Source: Peribacillus frigoritolerans
GTDB lineage: Bacteria; Bacillota; Bacilli; Bacillales; DSM-1321
Reading direction: 5' to 3'
Assembly (NCBI RefSeq): GCF_040250305.1
Contig: NZ_CP158190.1
Location: 1,582,001 to 1,646,000 of the forward strand
DNA length: 64,000 nt
Both the position numbers and the translations under genes were made by a program. Shown one piece after another: positions 52,330-58,950 of the stretch. The notes under the pieces are model-generated. The model saw nothing but the letters and a program-made list of their open reading frames with translations. It ran no database searches and had not been told where the DNA came from. The number at the start of each line of letters is the position of its first letter. Within the stretch, counting starts at the first letter, position 1.

Positions 52330-52359
52330 GCCAATTTAGGCAATCTGCAGGTTTTTTAT
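52321..52359 (+). terminator. Terminator overlapping the deacetylase stop
   Basis: Stem CCTGCA/TGCAGG with a secondary inner pairing (GCC/GGC) and six T. The stop codon lies in the left part of the hairpin. Confidence 0.7.
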
Positions 52360-52790
52360 TTCCTTGGATAATAATACATCACCCGTTTATTGAAGAGGTG
52401 AAGCTGTGCCCGTAATTTCTTTGCAAGGAACTTGCACAATTCATTTGCTTTTCCCTTATCACCGAAAGTGGCTGTTTCAGGGAGGGTGAATTGGATATAG
52501 GATTGAATCCGCTCAGATCCATCTTCATCCTTAACGATCTCTTGGTCGACGCCTATCAATATCATGTGATATCGATCTTCTTTGGATTGGAGGTATATGG
52601 CCTTATCTTTCATTCTTGCCGGTTCTTTCATTTCATAAGGAAATGCCTTCTTATCATAGTCCCAATCCAGCTGCTTTCCGGTTTTCGCTGTGATCATTCG
52701 ATAATAGTTCAGCAATTCTTTCACGTCTTCGATGGTTACAGTTCCTTTCGCGGCCTCAGGAACAAGTTTGATATAGGCATTTTCAGTCAT
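52356..52790 (-). CDS. Hypothetical protein (possibly DUF1885)
   Basis: A 144-residue soluble protein beginning MTENAYIKLVPEAAKGTVTIEDVKELLNYYRMITAKTGKQLDWDYDKKAFPYEM. AAGGGGGATCCAC before the ATG at 52790 decides the start over 52829. The pattern resembles the DUF1885 family of Bacillus (from memory, not checked). No catalytic motif is visible. It is convergent with the deacetylase gene. Confidence 0.7.
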   Translation of the reverse strand: MTENAYIKLVPEAAKGTVTIEDVKELLNYYRMITAKTGKQLDWDYDKKAFPYEMKEPARMKDKAIYLQSKEDRYHMILIGVDQEIVKDEDGSERIQSYIQFTLPETATFGDKGKANELCKFLAKKLRAQLHLFNKRVMYYYPRK

Positions 52791-53015
52791 GTGGATCCCC
52801 CTTAATAGAATGTAAGAATATATTAACATTTTATGGATGTATTATATACATATCTATATGTAAATGAAAAGGCGAAATTCCTTTTTCACCTTGCTATGCT
52901 GAAGCAAGGAGTATGATGCATTGAGTCAAGGGCCCTTCGTTTATAAATAAATTCCCGTGTTTTAAGAAAGGCTGTTTTCGCATACTTTGTTGCTATTTAC
53001 CAAGTAGTGCGGTGT

Positions 53016-53143
53016 GGTTGATTTCCCCTCCAGATGCTCGCTTTCCGCGGGGCGGGCGGTGAGCCTCCTCGGCGTAAACGCCTGTGGGGTCTCACCTGTC
53101 CCGCTGCTCCCGCAGGAGTCTCGCACTTCCGCTCCAATCAACC
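53016..53143 (-). repeat. Full-length GTTGATT intergenic repeat (128 bp)
   Basis: Starts GGTTGATT and ends AATCAACC, so the ends are inverted repeats. On the minus strand the order is GGAGCGGAAGTGCGAGACTC, CTGCGGGAGCAGCGGGAC, GTGAGACCCCACAGGCG, CGCCGAGGAGGCTCACCGCC and GCGGAAAGCGAGCATCTGGAGG. It resembles the shorter copy at 39751 and, more distantly, the copies at 398 and 11643-12043 (CTCCTGC..GAGACCCCACAG..GCGGAAAGxGAG). An open frame across it (52962-53171) is not a gene. Confidence 0.85.
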
Positions 53144-53267
53144 TTAAATAGTTTCGTTTTAAAAACAACAATCTTTATGAAAAGAGCCTAAAAAAAAGAA
53201 TCAGTCTAACGAACGATTGGAATGCAGTTCTTTCAAGATGATCGTTCATAAAGTGGGGAAAAGTATA

Positions 53268-53278
53268 TATGTTATACT
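53268..53278. promoter_or_regulatory. CcpN operator site 1
   Basis: TATGTTATACT fits the CcpN consensus TRTGHYATAYW at every position (as I recall it). It lies just upstream of the SR1 -35 box, within a longer palindrome AAAAGTATA-TATGT-TATACTTTT (53259-53281). Confidence 0.6.
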
Positions 53279-53285
53279 TTTTAGC

Positions 53286-53314
53286 TTGAAATAATAAATG
53301 TGTTATATTATAAT
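53286..53314 (+). promoter_or_regulatory. SR1 promoter
   Basis: TTGAAA (53286-53291), 17-bp spacer, TATAAT (53309-53314). The start of transcription would be near 53321. Confidence 0.8.
53299..53309. promoter_or_regulatory. CcpN operator site 2
   Basis: TGTGTTATATT again fits TRTGHYATAYW completely. It lies between -35 and -10, 31 bp (three helical turns) from site 1, so both are on the same face of the DNA. Confidence 0.6.
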
Positions 53315-53375
53315 TCATTTAAAGCGGTTACATTATATCAATAATGCATACAATATAGGGGAAGGGGTTGTAAAA

Positions 53376-53501
53376 ATGGGAACTATCGTATGTCAAACTT
53401 GCAATAGCACGATTGAACATTTTGAAGATGAGAAAGTAAGTGTACTATATACACATAATCACAACTGCCAAAGCTGTGATACAGCTGCCTCTGAAAAATA
53501 A
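53376..53501 (+). CDS. sr1P: SR1P, GapA-binding peptide
   Basis: A 41-residue peptide: MGTIVCQTCNSTIEHFEDEK then VSVLYTHNHNCQSCDTAASEK. It has two cysteine pairs (CQTC near the start and CQSC near the end), a metal-binding look, and the family pattern MGTIVCQxC..TIxHFEDEK. In B. subtilis SR1P binds the glycolytic GAPDH (GapA) and strengthens its contact with RNase J1. AAGGGG before the ATG at 53376. It is too short for most gene callers. RNase J1 is encoded at 39.9 kb; GapA is not in the window. Confidence 0.9.
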   Translation: MGTIVCQTCNSTIEHFEDEKVSVLYTHNHNCQSCDTAASEK

Positions 53502-53535
53502 ATCGAAAAAGGATTTCAAGATTAATAGAATTTAA

Positions 53536-53571
53536 GGGTGTTTCAGGATTGTAACCTGGAGCACCCTTTTT
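53536..53571 (+). terminator. SR1 terminator
   Basis: A 12-bp stem GGGTGTTTCAGG/CCTGGAGCACCC (with two G-U pairs), ATTGTAA loop, then five T. Confidence 0.85.
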
Positions 53572-53602
53572 ATAGAAGTCAGTGCTTAATATTAAAAGGT
53601 AC

Positions 53603-53634
53603 AAAAAAACCAGAGCAGTACTCTGCTCTGGTTT
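53603..53634 (-). terminator. Terminator of speA
   Basis: Minus strand: stem AAACCAGAGCAG/CTGCTCTGGTTT with a four-base loop, followed by T residues. Confidence 0.88.
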
Positions 53635-53645
53635 GATGGAATCGA

Positions 53646-55103
53646 TCAATTCTTAATAATGCGTAAATATTTTATTTCTGGGTCCTCAGGGCCTTGAACA
53701 GGAAGTCCGGCCTCGATGTTTTTCCGGATGTAATTGATATTATCTTCAGTAATCAATTCACCTGGAATGAAGATCGGGATTCCCGGCGGGTAAACCATGA
53801 TGAATTCAGCGCTGATTTTGCCGACCGATTCCTCAATGGGAACCACTTCGGTTTCTGCATAAAATGCCTCCCTGGGTGATAAAGCCAGTGGTGGTGTATC
53901 AGGAAGCAGGACTTCAATTTTTTCATGTTCTGCAGCCATTTCCTTAAACTCATCCGATAAGTCTCTAAGGGCAGCGATCAGCAGATCCGCTTCTGTTTTT
54001 GAGTCTCCAGGTGTTATCAGGCAAAGGATGTTGTACAAGTCAGAAAGTTCCACTTCGATATTATGCTTTTCACGAAGCCATTTCTCGACGTCGTATCCGG
54101 TAATATTCAATTCCTTAATGGATATGATCAATTTAGTCGGATCATAGCTATATGCTGCCTTACTCTCGAGAATTTCGCTGCCGACACAGTATAGATAAGG
54201 AATCTCATTAACGGCCTCACGGATATACCCTGCGAGATTGATCGCTTCATCGACCATTTCCCTGCCTACCGTCGCAAGTTGTCTTCTAGCCGTATCCAGG
54301 GAAGCCAGAAGGATATAGGAGGTTGAGGTGGTTGTGAGCATGCTCAATATGGCTTGAACACGATTTGCGGAAACCAATCCAGTCTTAACATTCAATATGG
54401 AACTTCCCGTCAGTGAACCTCCCAGTTTATGAACACTCGTTGCAGCCATATCTGCTCCAGCTTGCATGGCTGACATCGGCAAGTCTTCGTGGAAGTGAAT
54501 ATGGACACCATGCGCTTCATCTACGAGTACTGGGATTTGGTGGGAATGAGCCACTTCCACTATTTTCTGCAAATCAGCCGAAATGCCGAAATAAGTGGGG
54601 TTGATGACAAGCAATCCTTTTGCATCGCTATGTTCGCTTAAAGTTTTTTCAACGGCCTCGACGGTGATACCGTGTGAGATGCCCAAATCTTTGTCTATTT
54701 CAGGATTGATGAAAATGGGAACAGCTCCAGAAAATACAATGGCGGACATTACGGATTTATGTACATTCCTTGGAACGATGATTTTGTCCCCAGGTCCGCA
54801 TACTGTCATGACCATCGTCATGATTGCTCCACTTGTTCCTTGAACGGAAAAGAATGTGTGATCTGCCCCAAAAGCCTCGGCTGCAAGATCCTGAGCTTGT
54901 TTAATGATCCCTTTTGGCTGATGGAGATCATCGAGTGGAGCGATATTGATTAAATCTATGGATAATGCATTTTCTCCAATGAAATTACGGAAATCAGCGT
55001 CCATTCCTTTTCCTTTTTTATGACCTGGAATATGAAATTGAACGGGATTTCTTTTTGCATGCTGCAATAAGGCAGTGTATAAGGGTGTTTCATTCTGTGA
55101 CAA
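53646..55103 (-). CDS. speA: Arginine decarboxylase SpeA
   Basis: A 485-residue Orn/Lys/Arg decarboxylase of the short, biosynthetic Firmicute type. It begins LSQNETPLYTALLQHAKRNPVQFHIPGHKKGKGMD, as in B. subtilis SpeA; PLP Lys is in ATSVHKLGGSLTGSS, with the earlier DEAHGVH aspartate. It makes agmatine from arginine for polyamine synthesis. I start at the TTG at 55103, with AAGGGG 10 bp upstream; the frame is open to an ATG at 55196, but that has no ribosome binding site and homologues begin at the TTG. Position after SR1 matches B. subtilis. Confidence 0.92.
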   Translation of the reverse strand: MSQNETPLYTALLQHAKRNPVQFHIPGHKKGKGMDADFRNFIGENALSIDLINIAPLDDLHQPKGIIKQAQDLAAEAFGADHTFFSVQGTSGAIMTMVMTVCGPGDKIIVPRNVHKSVMSAIVFSGAVPIFINPEIDKDLGISHGITVEAVEKTLSEHSDAKGLLVINPTYFGISADLQKIVEVAHSHQIPVLVDEAHGVHIHFHEDLPMSAMQAGADMAATSVHKLGGSLTGSSILNVKTGLVSANRVQAILSMLTTTSTSYILLASLDTARRQLATVGREMVDEAINLAGYIREAVNEIPYLYCVGSEILESKAAYSYDPTKLIISIKELNITGYDVEKWLREKHNIEVELSDLYNILCLITPGDSKTEADLLIAALRDLSDEFKEMAAEHEKIEVLLPDTPPLALSPREAFYAETEVVPIEESVGKISAEFIMVYPPGIPIFIPGELITEDNINYIRKNIEAGLPVQGPEDPEIKYLRIIKN

Positions 55104-55520
55104 TTCTTTGTGGCCCCTTTTCAATAAAATAGGTACGAAATATTTGGGAGCATATACTCCCTTTCTATTAACGATCGTATGTTTCTCCGATTCCATTCAA
55201 ATGGTTTGTAAGCTTGTGGATAGACATAAAACATATGAATTATAGCACGTCTTATAATAAATGCCTAGAGTGACTTTAATGTCCTGACTTAAACAATTTA
55301 TATATGTCTTTGTTGTTAAGGGGCTCAATAAAATTATCTGCAGTTTATAAATGTCCATTTTCCTAGTATTTACTGGATTTACTCAAGAATTCTTCTTTTA
55401 TTAATATTGTATTTGTGAGTTTAAAAATTGAACGGGTAAACAATATTTGCCATAATGAAGCTAATGATTTGGATTCAGCTAAATAAACAAACGACCAAAA
55501 TGAAAAGGGAGATGAGGAGT

Positions 55521-56871: not shown

Positions 56872-57137
56872 CAAGAAAAAGATAAAGGCAGTGACGAAGA
56901 AGAGTACCTTAATGATGTTCTGCAGAGAGCCAGTGGTTGCTGAAAACTGGTGAACGAATTTAAGCGAATGGACTTCCGAGCCCCAAACCGAAACGGATAA
57001 CGGAGTAGGCTTTGGCGATTATCTCATCGTTAATGGAGATAGGCATGTTAATGCCGTAAAGTGAGCTAATTTAGCTAATTAAGGTGGTACCACGGGTTCC
57101 TCGTCCTTTGGATGAGGGCCCTTTTTGCGTTTTTTTG
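56872..57137 (+). promoter_or_regulatory. T-box riboswitch 1 (tRNA-Trp)
   Basis: Standard T-box leader. Stem I begins with AGTGACGAAGAAGAGTA and holds AGAGAGCC..GGTTGCTGAAAACTGG (the loop and GNUG-like arms); the specifier is TGG at 56969-56971 (GAATGGAC), read by tRNA-Trp. The T-box sequence AGGTGGTACCACGG is at 57082-57095 and the terminator (GGGTTCCTCGTCC pairing with GGATGAGGGCCC, then T) at 57094-57137. Uncharged tRNA-Trp would stabilise the antiterminator. Confidence 0.92.
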
Positions 57138-57141
57138 AAAA

Positions 57142-57418
57142 TGATAATTAAATCTATGAATGAGAGTAGTAATCTTTTTAGATGCGTCACAGAGAGCCGG
57201 AATAGGTGGAAACCGGTACGATATAAGAAGATGAATGGACTTATGAGTGGTTTCTTGAAATAAGTAGGGAAACTCGGCTGCCACCGTTAAAGGGTAAACG
57301 CAAGAATTTTTCATTCTTGCTTGAGAGGGAAAAATGATGCGTTTTTCCAACTTGAGGTGGCACCGCGGTATACCGTCCTCTGCAGACACATATTTGTGTT
57401 TGCAGGGGATTTTTTTAT
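57142..57418 (+). promoter_or_regulatory. T-box riboswitch 2 (tRNA-Trp)
   Basis: A second complete leader in tandem. GAGAGTAGTAATC starts stem I, AGAGAGCCGG..GGTGGAAACCGG follows, and the specifier TGG is at 57236-57238 in GAATGGAC. The T-box AGGTGGCACCGCGG is at 57355-57368 and the terminator (TCCTCTGCAGACACA with its complement, then seven T) at 57375-57418. Two serial T-boxes give an AND-like, steeper response to tryptophan limitation. Confidence 0.92.
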
Positions 57419-57555: not shown

Positions 57556-58950
57556 ATGAATAATTTGGATGAAAAAAAAATACTCCGTTTTAAAATGGAC
57601 ACAATTGAAGGGGATATCCACACACCCATTGCCATATTTCAGAAATTGGATGGTGACCAGAAGTTTTTATTGGAAAGTTCAAATTCGCATCATGACAACG
57701 GCCGCTACTCTTATCTAGGTTCAAAACCCTACCTGGAGGTGACATCACTTGCTGACCAAGTATATGTGAAAGACACCGAAACAGGTGACCAAATCGTAAA
57801 GAACATCAATATCATCGAGTTTCTAAAAAACGAATTATTAGTGGAAATAGGAGAGGCTCCCATGCATCTTCCTCCTTTTAACGGTGGAGCAATCGGATAT
57901 ATGGGCTATGATATCATTCGTCTATATGAAAATATAGGTACGGTTCCTCCTGATTCTCTGCAAATGCCTGATGCTCATTTTCTTTTTTATAAAGAATTGT
58001 ATATATTCGATCATGTTCTGCAGAAGATCCATCTTTTGACTGCGGAAGAAGATAGTGAAAAAAGTTTATTGAAGATGAAGGGAAAAATCAATCAGGCAAG
58101 CAAGCCGTCAAAGGAAATATCGTCTGAATATTTGGAATTCGATTCGAATTTCAGTCAGGATGAATTCGAGAAAATGGTCCTTGAAGTCAAAGCGGCGATT
58201 GTAGCCGGTGAAGTGTTCCAAGTCGTTTTATCACAAAGGTTTAAAGCGGACTTCGATGGGGAGCCTTTCGATGCTTACCGACGTTTGCGATTAGCCAACC
58301 CGTCTCCTTATATGTTTTATATAGAATTTGGCGACTATACAATCATTGGGTCGTCTCCAGAAAGTTTAATCAGTGTTTCATCAGGAATGGTTCATGTTAA
58401 TCCCATCGCCGGCACACGGCCGAGAGGGAAAACGGATGAAGAAGATAAGGGCTTCGAAAAAAGCCTGCTGATGGATGAAAAGGAACTTGCCGAGCATAAG
58501 ATGCTTGTTGATTTAGGTAGGAATGATCTTGGCAGGGTTTGCGAAATAGGTTCAATCCACCTTACTGAGGAAATGGAAATTCAAAGATATCAGCATGTCA
58601 TGCATATTGCTTCGAAGGTTAGCGGAAAGCTTAGGGAAGGGTACACGAGTTTAGATGCCCTTACGGTCTGCCTCCCTGCCGGAACAGTTTCAGGTGCTCC
58701 TAAAATCAGGGCAATGGAGCTGATCAATGAACTGGAAAATTGTAAACGGGGGATGTATTCGGGCTCGATAGGCTACATAGGTTTTGGAGGGGATCTTGAT
58801 ATGGCTTTAGCCATTCGGACGATGATCATTAAAGATGGCAAGGCCTATGTACAGGCAGGGGCTGGAATTGTATATGATTCAGATCCAAAAACGGAATATG
58901 AAGAAACACAAAATAAAGCACGCGCTTTAATGGAGGTTCACACCAAATGA
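57556..58950 (+). CDS. trpE: Anthranilate synthase component I
   Basis: A 464-residue chorismate-using enzyme. The C-terminal chorismate-binding core begins around residue 195 (FQVVLSQRFKADF), with GSSPESLISV, PIAGTRPRGKTDEEDK, DLGRNDLGRV and PAGTVSGAPKIRAMELINELE. The N-terminal Trp-feedback region includes LLESS and GAIGYMGYD. It makes anthranilate from chorismate with ammonia from TrpG. It overlaps trpG by four bases (ATGA). First gene of trpEGDCFBA. Confidence 0.96.
   Translation: MNNLDEKKILRFKMDTIEGDIHTPIAIFQKLDGDQKFLLESSNSHHDNGRYSYLGSKPYLEVTSLADQVYVKDTETGDQIVKNINIIEFLKNELLVEIGEAPMHLPPFNGGAIGYMGYDIIRLYENIGTVPPDSLQMPDAHFLFYKELYIFDHVLQKIHLLTAEEDSEKSLLKMKGKINQASKPSKEISSEYLEFDSNFSQDEFEKMVLEVKAAIVAGEVFQVVLSQRFKADFDGEPFDAYRRLRLANPSPYMFYIEFGDYTIIGSSPESLISVSSGMVHVNPIAGTRPRGKTDEEDKGFEKSLLMDEKELAEHKMLVDLGRNDLGRVCEIGSIHLTEEMEIQRYQHVMHIASKVSGKLREGYTSLDALTVCLPAGTVSGAPKIRAMELINELENCKRGMYSGSIGYIGFGGDLDMALAIRTMIIKDGKAYVQAGAGIVYDSDPKTEYEETQNKARALMEVHTK

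Follow-up and report, generated by a model that had tools for sequence, protein, structure and literature searches.

We report an SR1/SR1P gene in Peribacillus that is very probably orthologous to SR1 of B. subtilis, presumably controlled by CcpN and acting through binding of its SR1P peptide to GapA. The unit is an ordinary ortholog, and the CcpN reading is familiar in kind; our computations add the spacing of the CcpN words across loci, a cre-like word overlapping the predicted start of transcription, and details of the SR1P cysteines. For the phased spacing, the start-site word and the cysteine/metal point, we found no prior statement in open-access papers, and earlier SR1/CcpN papers may describe some of them. 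By sequence reading, the ORF list and a profile search, the compact unit was placed at 53268-53571 of the window, by which we mean the whole 64-kb stretch of DNA analysed, from a 5.6-Mb Peribacillus genome in one contig. Its features are as follows.

52356-52793, minus strand: DUF1885 gene, upstream neighbor (PF08968, 196 bits)
53268-53278, plus strand: upstream CcpN-type word TATGTTATACT, exact match to TRTGHYATAYW, ending 7 bp 5′ of the –35 region
53286-53291, plus strand: –35 region TTGAAA, from sequence reading and promoter scan
53299-53309, plus strand: downstream CcpN-type word TGTGTTATATT, exact match to TRTGHYATAYW, in the spacer and overlapping the first T of the –10 region
53309-53314, plus strand: –10 region TATAAT, 17 bp 3′ of the –35 region, from sequence reading and promoter scan
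53319-53332, plus strand: candidate CcpA operator, the cre-like word TTAAAGCGGTTACA, overlapping the predicted start of transcription
53321-53571, plus strand: predicted SR1-type RNA of ∼251 nt, its start deduced from the promoter and its end from the terminator
53358-53367, plus strand: ribosome-binding site GGGGAAGGGG 5′ of the SR1P ORF, from sequence reading
53376-53501, plus strand: SR1P ORF of 41 amino acids (PF13790)
53534-53568, plus strand: intrinsic terminator hairpin, 14 bp by folding, with a T-run to 53571
53646-55196, minus strand: speA-type Orn/Lys/Arg decarboxylase gene converging on SR1 (PF01276, 382.5 bits)

The σA-type promoter TTGAAA-17-TATAAT of the original prediction is present at 53286-53314. 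With a score of 11/12, it is the best of eight promoter-like matches in 52800-53700, a region whose shuffles give a mean of 3.0. Folding of 53321-53575 yielded –55.5 kcal/mol (z –2.5), and 2 of 200 shuffles were as good. The predicted terminator hairpin was recovered as well, with a stem of 14 bp instead of the 12 bp first given; its T-run comprises only 5 T, and the hairpin was seen by folding and not listed by a simple terminator scan. The placement of the unit between pdhD and speA holds loosely: a polysaccharide deacetylase gene and the DUF1885 gene, which we take to be yktA-like, also intervene. An Rfam scan of the window at gathering scores returned no SR1 match and only two T-boxes. These T-box leaders are arranged in tandem (56882-57111 and 57147-57383) and precede an ORF at 57556 that we named trpE-like by eye. 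The AT-rich gap 5′ of SR1 contains a GC-rich element at ∼53028-53137. Its 30-base core (53045-53074) is a dispersed repeat with 12 genomic copies including its own, six per strand, of which 11 are exact and one has three mismatches; the backwards control gave none.

The 41-codon gene had been predicted to encode SR1P with two CxxC pairs, and both points are borne out: the peptide matches PF13790 with 67.3 bits against a cut-off of 26 and carries CQTC at residues 6-9 and CQSC at residues 31-34. All of 159 distinct SR1P peptides contain the first CxxC, and all but those of G043, G067, and G101 contain another C-x(1-4)-C (156 peptides, 121 of them with an exact CxxC), a result that is favored by the retrieval of these peptides with a model containing the cysteines. 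Given this conservation, a metal site in SR1P is plausible. The best of five predicted structures is a three-strand sheet with pLDDT 77 and pTM 0.47 (57-62 pLDDT for the other four). A Foldseek search with it returned nothing significant (best E 1.7), and most of the 44 matches were metal proteins of the Fur/PerR family. NCBI names the relatives “GapA-binding peptide SR1P”, and in B. subtilis SR1P binds GapA and promotes the interaction of GapA with RNase J1, according to PMC8152036. The words “zinc” and “cysteine” are absent from the main text of an SR1P review that we searched. The conserved cysteines allow a simple test of the mode of SR1P-GapA binding.

SR1P is present in all 43 genomes of the family and in 145 of 398 genomes sampled from the class; the 178 SR1P loci used below comprise 30 family loci, drawn from 30 of the 43 genomes, and 148 others. 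A 2021 count gives 139 species with SR1P, in Bacillus and Geobacillus only (PMC8501984). NCBI names for SR1P extend to Brevibacillus, a genus included in our family f37. The association with speA is close, with the peptide pattern found at 76 of 80 named speA loci. Among the four without it (L227, L255, L292, and L295), L227 has SR1P in its genome outside the flank examined, and the contigs of L255 and L295 extend for just 167 and 396 bases past the speA match. Several loci deviate in arrangement. In Peribacillus huizhouensis (L237), as in G017, there are three tandem SR1P units, each with an exact CcpN pair at 32 bp, and in G018 and G030 two additional SR1P matches lie at other genomic positions. 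At three loci (two Robertmurraya and one B. methanolicus; L270, L284, and L285) SR1P is co-directional with speA, not convergent. A divergent branch of SR1P starts with MEAIVCQ or MEVIVCQ (L153, L167, L178, and others), and close to the promoter some of its members carry just one CcpN-type word or a word resembling cre.

The regulator itself appears to be encoded in the genome: a search for ccpN found a 212-amino-acid homologue directly 5′ of a PF03618 gene, named by this neighbor and by its architecture, not by a curated model. We take the two genes to represent the ccpN-yqfL arrangement of B. subtilis. CcpN matches occur in 348 of the 398 class genomes and in 143 of the 145 with SR1P, all with E below 1e-53 (G085 and G106 gave no match), a co-occurrence that says little because CcpN is so much more widespread than SR1P. 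Two GAPDH genes are present. The putative gapB sits between coaE-like and speD-like genes (names from the printed ORFs); an exact CcpN word starts 67 bp 5′ of its start codon, and a second one 171 bp 5′ of it, inside the terminal part of the coaE-like ORF. Another exact word starts 53 bp 5′ of the pckA start codon. No further exact word in forward orientation lies near the promoter of either gene, so that the further words expected at gapB and pckA were found as single words but not as pairs of the SR1 type. In the 150 bp 5′ of gapA, the GAPDH gene adjoining cggR- and pgk-like genes, there is no word within two mismatches. Deletion of ccpN raises the gapB and pckA transcripts in a Geobacillus species, as reported in PMC7936320.

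The original prediction had placed two TRTGHYATAYW words 31 bp apart around the SR1 –35 region, and both are exact and at this distance from start to start. PMC8464778 describes the same two-site layout for psr1 of B. subtilis. An alternative is that the words are chance matches arising from AT-rich promoter sequence near TATAAT. The downstream word indeed overlaps the –10 region, and in the genome as a whole exact words scarcely exceed the backwards control (177, i.e. 97 + 80, vs. 143, i.e. 68 + 75), so that single words mean little. Pairs with a gap of 10-31 bp are likewise weak evidence when counted genome-wide, the one at SR1 being matched by one in the backwards control. What decides in favor of a real pair is its conservation across SR1P loci. 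Exact pairs within 120 bp occur at 49 of the 178 loci, and allowing one mismatch raises the number to 79; 20 rounds of shuffled upstream regions gave means of 0 and 0.25. All 30 family loci have the pair within one mismatch, 22 of them exactly; of the 76 named speA loci holding SR1P, 46 have an exact pair, a number that rises to 63 when one mismatch is allowed and to 74 with two, always at 31-33 bp, leaving L257 and L267 with no such pair. In the 250 bp 5′ of the ORF, 99 of the 178 loci, none of them from the family, lack a pair within one mismatch, and 65 of these 99 have a single word within one mismatch in the last 150 bp. Among 15 close loci, identity is 0.96 in the upstream word and falls to 0.34-0.47 farther 5′, is 1.0 for the downstream word and the –10 region, and lies at 0.94-1.0 from the upstream word through the –10 region. 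On the shuffles of the SR1P upstream regions we reject a chance origin as highly improbable. Together with the codon positions of the ORF, which in the same 15 loci are more conserved at positions 1 and 2 (0.99) than at position 3 (0.92), these identities suggest that operator and peptide are both under selection. With the ccpN homologue, the words at gapB and pckA and the conserved pair all pointing the same way, the sequence lends good support to CcpN control beyond B. subtilis, and the original CcpN reading is very likely correct.

A similar choice arises for the cre-like word at the predicted start. It has one mismatch to TGWAANCGNTWNCA, which we assumed as the cre consensus for scoring, and there is no other cre-like word within two mismatches in 600 bp at the SR1 locus. 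Such words occur in the 75 bp 5′ of the ORF in 93 of 178 loci at up to two mismatches and in 45 at up to one, whereas the reversed, complemented and centre-swapped control motifs reach 5, 5, and 18 loci at up to two mismatches and none at up to one (the first two controls being nearly identical to each other), and shuffles give ∼5%. Scanned elsewhere at up to two mismatches, 25 loci have a cre-like word at –400 to –325, 38 in the ORF and 6 at –250 to –175. The word could be a further site for the known minor effect of CcpA on SR1. It could also be an RNA element or the site of another regulator and not a CcpA cre, an explanation that in our estimate falls slightly short of an even chance. In its favor, the left half is mostly TT instead of the TG of cre (G in 15 of 92 words), the position of the word relative to the –10 region ranges from –3 to +22 nt, and cre-like words exceed the control in two of the other tested regions; on the other hand, the right half, CGNTTWCA, hardly varies and resembles cre. 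For B. subtilis, PMC8464778 places the published cre ∼260 bp before the start. Five genomes that we take as B. subtilis group (G110, G204, G279, G056, and G368) carry the start-site word at two mismatches. One of them, G279, has a further cre-like word at –306, in keeping with the published cre, which argues against the non-CcpA explanation; the same scanner found no cre-like word near the published position in the other four.

Base-pairing with ahrC raises the third alternative, namely that the locus is solely a conserved peptide gene, an SR1P mRNA, whose ahrC pairing is absent or was lost in the genus. The ORF is the best conserved transcribed part (identity 0.97), compared to 0.76 for the stretch from ORF to terminator. 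According to PMC8464778, SR1-ahrC pairing in B. subtilis begins at the terminator arm, the sequence of which differs between genera. Pairing with ahrC was moreover no better than in shuffles. In an accessibility-weighted scan of 12 genomes it reached –7.2 kcal/mol here, a value equalled or surpassed by 8 of 12 shuffles, and the controls failed alike. For terminator-arm/ahrC duplexes in 19 genomes, 6 of 15 shuffles were as good here, the lowest counts being 1 of 15 in G004 and 3 of 15 in G225, and the controls likewise showed no signal (8, 5, 15, and 13 of 15 in G110, G204, G279, and G056, which we place in the B. subtilis group by their peptide). Because these controls failed as well, the pairing scans decide nothing, and the same paper reports both base-pairing and peptide functions as conserved in nine tested homologues (PMC8464778). 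We hold the peptide-only explanation to be somewhat less likely than not. A match to the ahrC IKEL codons in G110, G204, and G279 was discarded; it lies beyond the SR1 terminator, apparently in the end of speA on the opposite strand.

Returning to the CcpN pair, we found that its spacing varies across the class in steps near whole helical turns. Requiring an exact upstream word plus, anchored at a –10 region, a downstream word that fits a looser pattern, we obtained 70 loci, with distances of 31-33 bp (42 loci), 43-44 bp (3), 53-57 bp (18), 76-77 bp (2), 97-98 bp (4), and 107 bp (1). In the rest of the 178 loci, this anchored test found only the downstream word in 34 and no downstream word in 74. 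Family f37 accounts for 26 of the 28 longer spacings; the remaining two are those of G394 (43 bp) and G125 (97 bp). The spacings fit a period of 10.65-10.8 bp. The phase test gave p = 0.0003 with eight lineage values and p = 0.035 with four; overall, p ranged from 0.00005 to 0.035 with the thinning of the loci, which was chosen post hoc, against a null of uniform spacings and with the relatedness of loci handled only crudely. The 53-57 bp group exceeds the phased distance by up to 3 bp, and including G261 (73 bp, upstream word with one mismatch and hence outside the 70-locus set) weakens the fit to p = 0.005. Pairs found without –10 anchoring also include two at 21 bp, one at 41 bp, and one at 73 bp. 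Taken at face value, the spacing would evolve in steps of full turns, a requirement of cooperative binding to a single DNA face. Cooperative binding or looping by CcpN can be tested directly on this variable yet apparently phase-locked spacing.

Taken together, these observations are consistent with the following model. With a sugar in use, CcpN would bind both words, which lie on the same DNA face about three turns apart, and the bound protein would stop RNA polymerase at the SR1 promoter; CcpA may reinforce this repression by way of the cre-like start-site word. When sugar is absent, SR1 RNA would be made and translated into SR1P, which would bind GapA and, as reported in B. subtilis, favor the association of GapA with RNase J1. 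As a broader and tentative proposal, for which we see somewhat less than even prospects, SR1 promoters across the Bacilli could consist of a helically phased CcpN pair (3, 4, 5, 7, 9, or 10 turns), joined in many lineages by a CcpA box at the start, so that two catabolite repressors would converge on one RNA, and SR1P could be a metal- or thiol-dependent GAPDH-binding mini-protein with a four-cysteine core.

Compared to SR1/SR1P of B. subtilis, the Peribacillus unit shares the peptide family, the speA neighbor, a σA-type promoter, the placement of the CcpN words and a terminator after the ORF. It differs in the length of the peptide (41 vs. 39 amino acids) and of the RNA (∼251 nt predicted vs. 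205 nt), in its terminator sequence, and in having, within two mismatches, a cre-like word at the start as the single one in 600 bp; the published cre of B. subtilis lies ∼260 bp before the start (PMC8464778). The words are 31 bp apart here but 33, 33, and 32 bp in G110, G204, and G279, where the second word has one mismatch; G056 and G368, also taken as B. subtilis group, have only the upstream word within one mismatch. In relation to the known CcpN regulon of gapB, pckA, and sr1, a ccpN homologue and exact words near gapB and pckA are likewise present, although these two genes have one exact forward word near the promoter and not an SR1-type pair. The SR1P loci of the Brevibacillus family f37 also combine SR1P with upstream and downstream CcpN words, which there are 44-107 bp apart (26 loci measured) instead of 31-33 bp. 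The SR1 promoter logic probably goes back to the ancestor shared with Brevibacillus, and the CcpN-SR1-SR1P branch known from B. subtilis looks intact in Peribacillus.
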